DNA from: Thermoleophilia bacterium
GTDB lineage: Bacteria; Actinomycetota; Thermoleophilia; Miltoncostaeales; Miltoncostaeaceae
Direction of reading: 5' to 3'
NCBI GenBank assembly: GCA_020438485.1
Contig: JAGQUM010000014.1
Coordinates: 1-48,691, forward strand
Length of the DNA: 48,691 bases
Shown piece after piece: positions 43,812 through 45,215 of this stretch. A program made the translations under genes and the position numbers. A model generated the notes under the pieces. That model was not told the origin of the DNA, ran no database searches, and was given only the letters and a program-made list of their open reading frames with translations. Position 1 is the first letter of the stretch; the number at the start of each line of letters is the position of its first letter.

Positions 43812-44327
43812 TCACCGGCGGCTGCAGACGGGCCAGTGGCGGTCCATGCCCTTGGAGAACGCCCACGACGCGGCCAGCGCCGACGCGTACGGGTCCGACC
43901 GCGAGAACTCCCGGTACGGGGTCGCGTTCCACAGGGGCGTGCCGAACTGGAACAGGCCCACGTAGGGGCCGTTCTGGGCCGACGGCACGAGCGTCGACTC
44001 GCACGTGGCGATGCGCGTGAGGCGCGATTCGGGCACGCCGTACGTCGCGGCGGCCACCTTCAACGCGTTCCGCACGTTGGGGCTGCTGCGCAACTGGTGC
44101 GAGTAGCGCCGGACCAGGGCGAGTCGCGACTTTCGCGCCTTTCGCAGGCTCCTGGCGTGGGTGCGGCGCTCGGCCCGGAGCTGCTGGCGCAGTTGGTCGT
44201 TCTGGGATTGGAGGGTCGCGGGATCCGCGGGCGGAGCCGCGGGGGTGTCCTGCGCGAGGGCGATGCCTGTGGCCGTGGCGGCCGCGACGGCGGCGCCCGC
44301 GATGGATGCACGTGAGATGCGCTTCAG
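43812..44327 (-). CDS. Secreted transglycosylase-like protein, apparently starting at CTG
   Basis: A 171-residue protein: a KRISRAS basic start and signal peptide (ASIAGAAVAAATATGIALAQ), then an Arg-rich coiled coil (LQSQNDQLRQQLRAERRTH). The small lytic-transglycosylase-like domain has AATYGVPESRLTRIATCEST, with the presumed catalytic Glu, and PYVGLFQFGTPLWN. The best start is CTG 44327: GGGAGG lies 6 bases upstream, and the N-terminus LKRIS mirrors MKRT of the neighbouring secreted protein. No ATG, GTG or TTG lies in frame until an ATG at 44462, far beyond the signal peptide. Confidence 0.8.
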   Translation of the reverse strand: MKRISRASIAGAAVAAATATGIALAQDTPAAPPADPATLQSQNDQLRQQLRAERRTHARSLRKARKSRLALVRRYSHQLRSSPNVRNALKVAAATYGVPESRLTRIATCESTLVPSAQNGPYVGLFQFGTPLWNATPYREFSRSDPYASALAASWAFSKGMDRHWPVCSRR

Positions 44328-44341
44328 GGACTGCCTCCCAT
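44324..44341 (-). promoter_or_regulatory. Five-codon upstream ORF overlapping the CTG start
   Basis: ATG GGA GGC AGT CCC TGA encodes MGGSP. Its stop overlaps the proposed CTG start as CTGA, in the manner of ATGA couplings. Its second and third codons also form the Shine-Dalgarno sequence of the main gene. Termination-reinitiation would explain use of CTG. Confidence 0.4.
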
Positions 44342-44561
44342 ACGGTGTTTCCCCGGAGCCCGTGGCCGCGTGGGTACGGCGCGTTCGGGTCGAAGCTCGG
44401 GCGTGCGGAGCGCGGCGACCGCGGTTGCGGCGGCCGGCGTCCGCGCCGGGGCGGACGTTCACGCCGGCCGGGGGCAGCGGCGGCGCGAGCGCGGAATGGT
44501 GGCAGATCCTTCGGACGGCGCAAGGCCGCCCGTGCCGGGAAACCCGCTCGCAGCGGGGTCG

Positions 44562-45215
44562 CTAGAACGGGGGCTGCGCCTGATGCCACTCGCCCACGGC
44601 GCGGAACGCGCTCCAGAACGCCCTCTTTGCGTCCTGGGCGTCGAGCGACGCGTCGATGTCGGGCACCCAGATCACGTCGATCGTCGGGGTCCAGCGTTGG
44701 ACCTCCCCCGCGCGGGGCTCCAGGGGGCCGGCGCCCGGGTGGTCCATGGTGCCGAGGGCTTCGAGGGTGGGCTCCCCCATGGGCACGATCAGCGTGGGCA
44801 TCACGATCTGGATCTCACGCGACACCCAGTCGGGCCGGAACCCCGGGGGGTCGAGTTTCACGCACAGCGCGCCGTACAGCGTCAGCGGGTCGATGCCCAG
44901 GCGCTGCACGCTCTTCAACACCGCCGTGCCTGAGCGGCCGAAGAACGCCACGCCCTCCTGGCGCTCCGCGGCGGCGGCGCTCCACTTCAGCAGCATGATG
45001 TCCGCCTGCGGCGAGCCGGAGCTCATCACGGGCAGGTCGGCACCCCCGGAGTGGGCCCCGGCGCCGGAGATCTCGTCGTTCAGCTCGCCCAGCTCCGTGA
45101 TGGCGCGCTTGAGGTACGCGTCCTGGATGTCGTCGGGCGGTTCGGGTGCGCTCGGCGCGGGGCGCAGGGCCCGGACGCGCTCGGAGCCGCGTGAGGGAGG
45201 AGTGTTCGCGGTCAT
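44562..45215 (-). CDS. Uracil-DNA-glycosylase-fold protein, divergent
   Basis: A 217-residue protein resembling family 4/5 uracil-DNA glycosylases in outline: VMSSGSPQADIMLL, then GVAFFGRSGTAVLKSVQRLG, the YGALCVKLDPPGFRPDW stretch and TLIVPMGEPTLEAL. The usual catalytic GEAPG-type loop is replaced by KWSAAAAERQEG and the four Fe-S cysteines are absent; only one Cys remains. Glycosylase activity is therefore doubtful. It starts at ATG, 7 bases after TACCGT. Confidence 0.7.
   Translation of the reverse strand: MTANTPPSRGSERVRALRPAPSAPEPPDDIQDAYLKRAITELGELNDEISGAGAHSGGADLPVMSSGSPQADIMLLKWSAAAAERQEGVAFFGRSGTAVLKSVQRLGIDPLTLYGALCVKLDPPGFRPDWVSREIQIVMPTLIVPMGEPTLEALGTMDHPGAGPLEPRAGEVQRWTPTIDVIWVPDIDASLDAQDAKRAFWSAFRAVGEWHQAQPPF

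Follow-up and report, generated by a model that had tools for sequence, protein, structure and literature searches.

The window analysed here is a 48,691-nucleotide stretch from an uncultured actinobacterium of the Thermoleophilia (contig JAGQUM010000014.1). On its minus strand lies a gene for a predicted secreted protein of lysozyme-fold or transglycosylase-like type, which spans 43812-44327 when read from a CTG codon (171 codons followed by the stop TGA at 43814-43812). The proposed CTG start codon (44325-44327) is preceded at 6 nt by the Shine-Dalgarno (SD) sequence GGAGG (44334-44338), and a 16S 3' end, GGATCACCTCCTTT, carrying the anti-SD was found in the source genome. A mini-ORF of five codons encoding MGGSP (44324-44341) covers the SD, and its stop codon overlaps the main start codon within the four bases CTGA (44324-44327). 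The leader thus reads, 5' to 3' on the minus strand, CCGGGGAAACACCGT-ATG-GGA-GGC-AGT-CCC-TGA-AG. A GGGG run (44351-44354), 9 nt before the mini-ORF ATG, might serve as a weak SD for the latter. Re-reading of the minus strand confirmed the coordinates and the arrangement given in the earlier note, with an SD placed for CTG 44327, the MGGSP mini-ORF and the CTGA overlap. Further upstream, the GTG at 44460-44462 is the sole start-type codon in frame with the enzyme gene before the CTG; from this GTG (-135) to a TTG at residue 79 the frame holds no ATG, GTG or TTG. The next gene upstream (44562-45215, minus strand) has no Pfam match and is presumably uracil-DNA-glycosylase-like.

The encoded protein begins with a signal-peptide-like segment of about 25 residues (44253-44327), comprising MKRISRA, a hydrophobic stretch and ALA followed by QD, as judged from hydropathy and charge only. 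The catalytic-type domain (43824-44060) contains the blocks CES, GLFQFG and HWPVC, with invariant residues C109, E110, S111, G124-G129, W165 and C168. All eight orthologues keep the motifs CES, GLFQFG and HW..C with little or no variation, and the Glu of the CES-type motif together with the GLFQF-type block is invariant among them. We regard these motifs as reminiscent of Rpf and SLT enzymes, and take the Glu and the GLFQF-type block to be the catalytic marks of that family. In the Pfam search with the protein itself, the Transglycosylase SLT model (PF01464) scored 17.7 bits, below its cut-off of 21.3, and the Rpf-like Transglycosylas model (PF06737) scored 14.1 bits against a cut-off of 27. 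The best solved relative by sequence profile was RpfE, with an E-value of 0.16. The structure model has a pLDDT of 73.5 and a pTM of 0.56, and comparison of its fold with the PDB yielded nothing significant at E<=0.001, the entry MltF appearing at E 3.2. The protein is likely a wall-cutting enzyme of the lysozyme fold. No match was found in the phage collection, and a phage origin of the gene was rejected.

Orthologues of the enzyme were found in 8 of the 42 genomes of the family, which as sampled also make up the whole order. They comprise the gene under study (L001) and that of its sister species (L003) in the own genus g1, L004 and L005 in g5, L006 and L008 in g4, L009 in g8 and L007 in g6. 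The same neighbour gene precedes all eight orthologues and is itself present in 39 of the 42 family genomes; further enzyme copies beside it were not detected by motif at the 30 of these 39 loci examined. The branching order of the genera is not settled in the orthologue tree. In the alignments A1 and A3 the row ends were set by hand, so that some N-termini are cut or extended (L004, L005, L006, L008, L009 and L007); these alignments served for the search, the tree and the model only, and all statements on start sites rest on other data.

Comparison of the eight loci points strongly to the CTG as the start of the gene. A GGAG lies 5 to 6 nt before an in-frame CTG in seven of the eight orthologues, from four genera, in line with the start at CTG 44327 given in the earlier note. 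Measured between base five of the GGAGN core and the CTG, the spacing is 6 nt in L001 and L009 and 5 nt in L003, L004, L005, L006 and L008. In the remaining orthologue, L007, the CTG follows a G-rich run, and the start could instead be an ATG at -48 that has a GGAGG. None of the eight has ATG, GTG or TTG in place of the CTG; relatives with ATG at this position, named in the earlier note as a refutation of its reading, were not seen. The frame of L009 is free of ATG, GTG and TTG from -120 to residue 55, and in L008 a TAG stop codon stands in frame 12 nt before the CTG, making an upstream start impossible in this species. L001 and L003 differ by one base in the distance from SD to CTG and by non-triplet indels further upstream, the frame being intact from the CTG on. 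When read from the CTG, all eight N-termini resemble signal peptides in hydropathy and charge, with one to three K/R residues and no D/E before a hydrophobic segment. Other start positions were also considered. In genus g4 an in-frame ATG or GTG at residue 7, lacking an SD, is a possible alternative start. An ATT/ATC start at codon 4 was rejected, as the SD is 15 nt away and the codon is absent from g5. The conserved SD and CTG, the signal peptide beginning at that codon and the frame-breaking indels upstream make the CTG at 44327 a well-supported start of the gene as far as sequence comparison can tell, and translation very probably initiates there.

The other in-frame candidate is the GTG at 44462, in which case the CTG would be an internal leucine codon. 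This GTG is a normal start codon, and a block of 19 bases that contains it is unchanged in the sister species L003. However, it has no SD in front, and the stretch between it and the CTG differs between L001 and L003 by indels of 2, 7, 1, 1 and 1 bases, which argue against coding there. The 45-residue extension that it would add contains 11 R/K residues and shows no similarity past VNVRP; no counterpart of the GTG exists in the other genera, and the stop codon of L008 sits just before the SD. The start at GTG 44462, which the earlier note had named as the competing possibility, was therefore rejected as extremely unlikely. The block CGGCGTGAACGTCCGCCCC that contains the GTG (window 44441-44470, about 135 bases upstream of the CTG) is identical in L003 despite diverged surroundings; it is possibly a promoter or operator.

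Starting at CTG does not appear to be a habit of this organism. The genome sample comprised 304 kb (the window plus further stretches) with 286 gene calls, the studied gene included; gene calls and coding boundaries, on which the SD counts and the canonical-start controls depend, were produced by a custom script based on coding potential rather than by a validated gene finder. Near coding boundaries of this sample, a strong SD accompanied 34 of 212 ATG, 50 of 396 GTG and 17 of 346 CTG codons; the rate for CTG is at or below that of the ordinary codons, with no excess of CTG. A CTG in frame and preceded by GGAG at precisely the spacing seen here occurred in a single gene out of 286 and at a single CTG out of 346, namely at the gene under study. 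As no other gene of the sample has such an arrangement, CTG starts are not the habit of the organism.

The mini-ORF is less widely kept than the CTG. The CTGA is found in four of the eight orthologues, belonging to the two genera g1 and g5, and the other four have CTGT. All four CTGA leaders carry an in-frame ATG upstream, at -14 in L001, -20 in L003 and -17 in both L004 and L005, encoding MGGSP, MSTGRLP, MTRRSS and MTWRSS, respectively; no mini-ORF is present in any of the four CTGT orthologues. The overlapping mini-ORF described in the earlier note thus held in both CTGA genera, but it is absent from half of the orthologues and its peptide sequence is not conserved, only the position of its stop being kept. 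Its absence from four of eight loci indicates that it is not needed for the use of CTG across the family. The switching or timing of expression suggested in the earlier note found no support in these comparisons.

We propose that the CTG at 44327 would start the gene with the help of the strong, well-placed SD. Since CUG pairs poorly with the initiator tRNA and IF3 rejects CUG, little protein would be expected from this start, and such low output may be what is maintained for a secreted enzyme that cuts the wall, as suggested by the precedents described below. In the own genus and in g5, a very short ORF spans the SD site and stops on the CUG. A ribosome that ends the mini-ORF would stand over the CUG, held by GGAGG, and could step back by one base to start again, a termination-reinitiation that would compensate for the weakness of the codon. 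A weak CTG start with a strong SD, fed by mini-ORF reinitiation in two genera and giving low output, is the best explanation of the locus, with a slightly better than even chance of being correct. The layout of the leader makes reinitiation at the CTG plausible, and we consider the chances about equal that the coupling of mini-ORF and CTG does or does not work by termination-reinitiation.

A simpler explanation is ordinary SD-led initiation at the CTG, the mini-ORF being a by-product of an ATG near the purine-rich SD and having no role. The SD and CTG occur together with no mini-ORF in L006, L008, L009 and probably L007, which favours this explanation, as do the unconserved peptide and the weak SD of the own mini-ORF. 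However, all four CTGA leaders contain the mini-ORF, compared with 41 of the 1249 CTGA sites of the 304-kb sample (3.3%, own site included) that have an in-frame ATG no more than 20 nt upstream. In shuffled leaders, 2-3% had an in-frame ATG that close to CTGA, and 4 of the 47 NTGA-type starts with a canonical codon and an SD had a comparable upstream ATG ORF. The start signals of the mini-ORF also differ between the genera, being strong in g5 (GAGGGGG, 5 nt, ATG) and weak in the own gene. Of the 34 nt before the CTG, 30 are identical between the two g5 leaders, versus 10 of 26 just upstream; this conserved block contains GAGGGGG, ATG and GGAGG, so that the mini-ORF's own SD and its ATG both lie inside it. 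In addition, L003 has its in-frame ATG at a different offset (-20 versus -14 in L001) despite the one-base difference in SD-CTG spacing. These two features of g5 and L003 argue against a by-product. The four mini-ORF cases form two pairs of close relatives whose leaders align and may share one ancestor; given this and the unsettled branching order, they are not independent. We give the by-product explanation an appreciable but less than even chance.

Two further readings assign the mini-ORF a larger part. Translation might start at the mini-ORF ATG and shift by -1 at the stop into the main frame, giving a fusion MGGSP-LKRIS. The geometry for this exists in L001, L003, L004 and L005, and a frameshifted uORF-PPE2 fusion, present in minor amounts, has been described for M. 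tuberculosis, in the portion of that report considered here (PMC11260477). However, a slippery heptamer is absent at the junctions AGTCCCTGA, CTTCCCTGA and TCATCCTGA, the shift is impossible in the four relatives that lack the mini-ORF, and the SD is placed for the CTG; a -1 shift is therefore very unlikely. Alternatively, fresh ribosomes might be unable to use the CUG at all, the enzyme being made solely through the mini-ORF by ribosomes that have come to its end and are retained at the GGAGG. We consider this reinitiation-only start improbable; if true, CUG would be a conditional start codon, and such genes would be hidden from annotation based on ATG, GTG and TTG.

The folding of the leader showed nothing unusual. 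The z-scores of seven leaders ranged from -1.8 to 0.7, the folding energies around the start are like the ones calculated for 71 canonical starts (p = 0.20), and no Rfam element was detected in the own leader or in those of L003-L009. A hairpin masking the SD and the CTG was rejected: the leaders allow local hairpins, but their z-scores and energies are ordinary.

A non-canonical start codon behind a strong SD is known, with the IF3-repressed starts of infC and sigR as examples; what is new here is the CTG, the overlap with a mini-ORF and the wall enzyme. The strongest precedent is sigR of Streptomyces, which, according to the sections of the report drawn on here, starts at GTC behind the SD AGGAGGTG, the GTC being conserved in 32 of 34 species, and is repressed by IF3 (PMC5472188). 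Similar to sigR, the present gene is actinobacterial, starts outside the ATG/GTG/TTG set and has a strong, conserved SD with a start codon kept across species; unlike sigR, it uses CTG instead of GTC, encodes a wall enzyme instead of a regulator and has a mini-ORF on its start, none being described for sigR in those sections (PMC5472188). The effect of IF3 was measured for sigR (PMC5472188), whereas a similar effect on the enzyme gene is a prediction. Retention of the CTG across several genera points to selection favouring weak initiation, as in sigR, here acting on a wall-cutting enzyme.

For the overlap, the closest counterpart is the uORF of ppe2 in M. tuberculosis, in which an AUGA overlap supported termination-reinitiation in reporter constructs, as the relevant part of the report states (PMC11260477). 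Both are actinobacterial short leader ORFs whose stop overlaps the following start by four bases. In contrast, the start is CUG here and AUG in ppe2, and PPE2, as presented in that part, has no SD of its own and is under a B12 riboswitch, whereas the leader studied here has no Rfam match (PMC11260477). The ATGA and GTGA overlaps between genes share the four-base overlap of stop and start and often an SD inside the upstream ORF, but in the excerpts used they couple two real genes through ATG or GTG, compared with five codons and a CTG here (PMC6728339, PMC10666635). Termination-reinitiation at short uORFs in general is discussed in a passage of another article (PMC12548453). Similar to the present gene, rpfB of M. 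tuberculosis encodes a wall-degrading enzyme with a rare start codon and, in the section available, is leader-controlled; it differs in that its TTG belongs to the canonical class and its 5' UTR contains a terminator-type RNA switch (PMC6009663).

Published work on CTG itself partly speaks against such starts. CUG complexes were less stable than AUG, GUG or UUG complexes in the data presented in one excerpt (PMC11497404). Against the use of CTG, the codon was not enriched in a mycobacterial start-codon library (0.03%; PMC4633059) or at M. tuberculosis initiation sites (PMC9094748), as given in the parts of these reports consulted. No described case of a CUGA-type overlap or a CTG start in actinobacteria was found in the literature searched, a limited collection queried with particular wording. 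CTG is almost never used as a bacterial start codon, and this unusual start, overlapped in some relatives by a mini-ORF, probably keeps production of the enzyme low. Gene finders restricted to ATG, GTG and TTG would misplace the start of this enzyme or drop the gene. The locus also lends itself to asking, in a small natural setting, whether termination-reinitiation makes the choice of start codon less strict.

The gene for IF3, infC, is present in the source genome. In the family, infC was found in 14 of the 15 genomes searched (L090-L103), starting with TTG or GTG that is mostly followed at once by CCTCCTAGG-like codons. These codons look complementary to an SD, and the infC start is perhaps self-masking, judging from this complementarity.

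Homologues of the enzyme were also found more widely. Of the 399 genomes sampled from the class, 30 gave a match, comprising the 8 orthologues and 22 distant homologues outside the family. The majority of the distant homologues in family f6 start at ATG with an SD. Common to many of them (L018-L020, L023-L025 and L027-L034) is a stretch like AGCAGGCCGGAAAGGAAGT directly before the ATG, which had no Rfam match in the three f6 loci scanned (L018, L019 and L025). At another f6 locus (L022), a cobalamin riboswitch lies at 2347-2489 on the plus strand, opposite to the strand of the homologue. The genome under study itself contains a diverged paralogue of the enzyme (L002, G000:C12:18790-19152), which shares 45% identity over residues 43-166 and has ordinary GTG and ATG start candidates.
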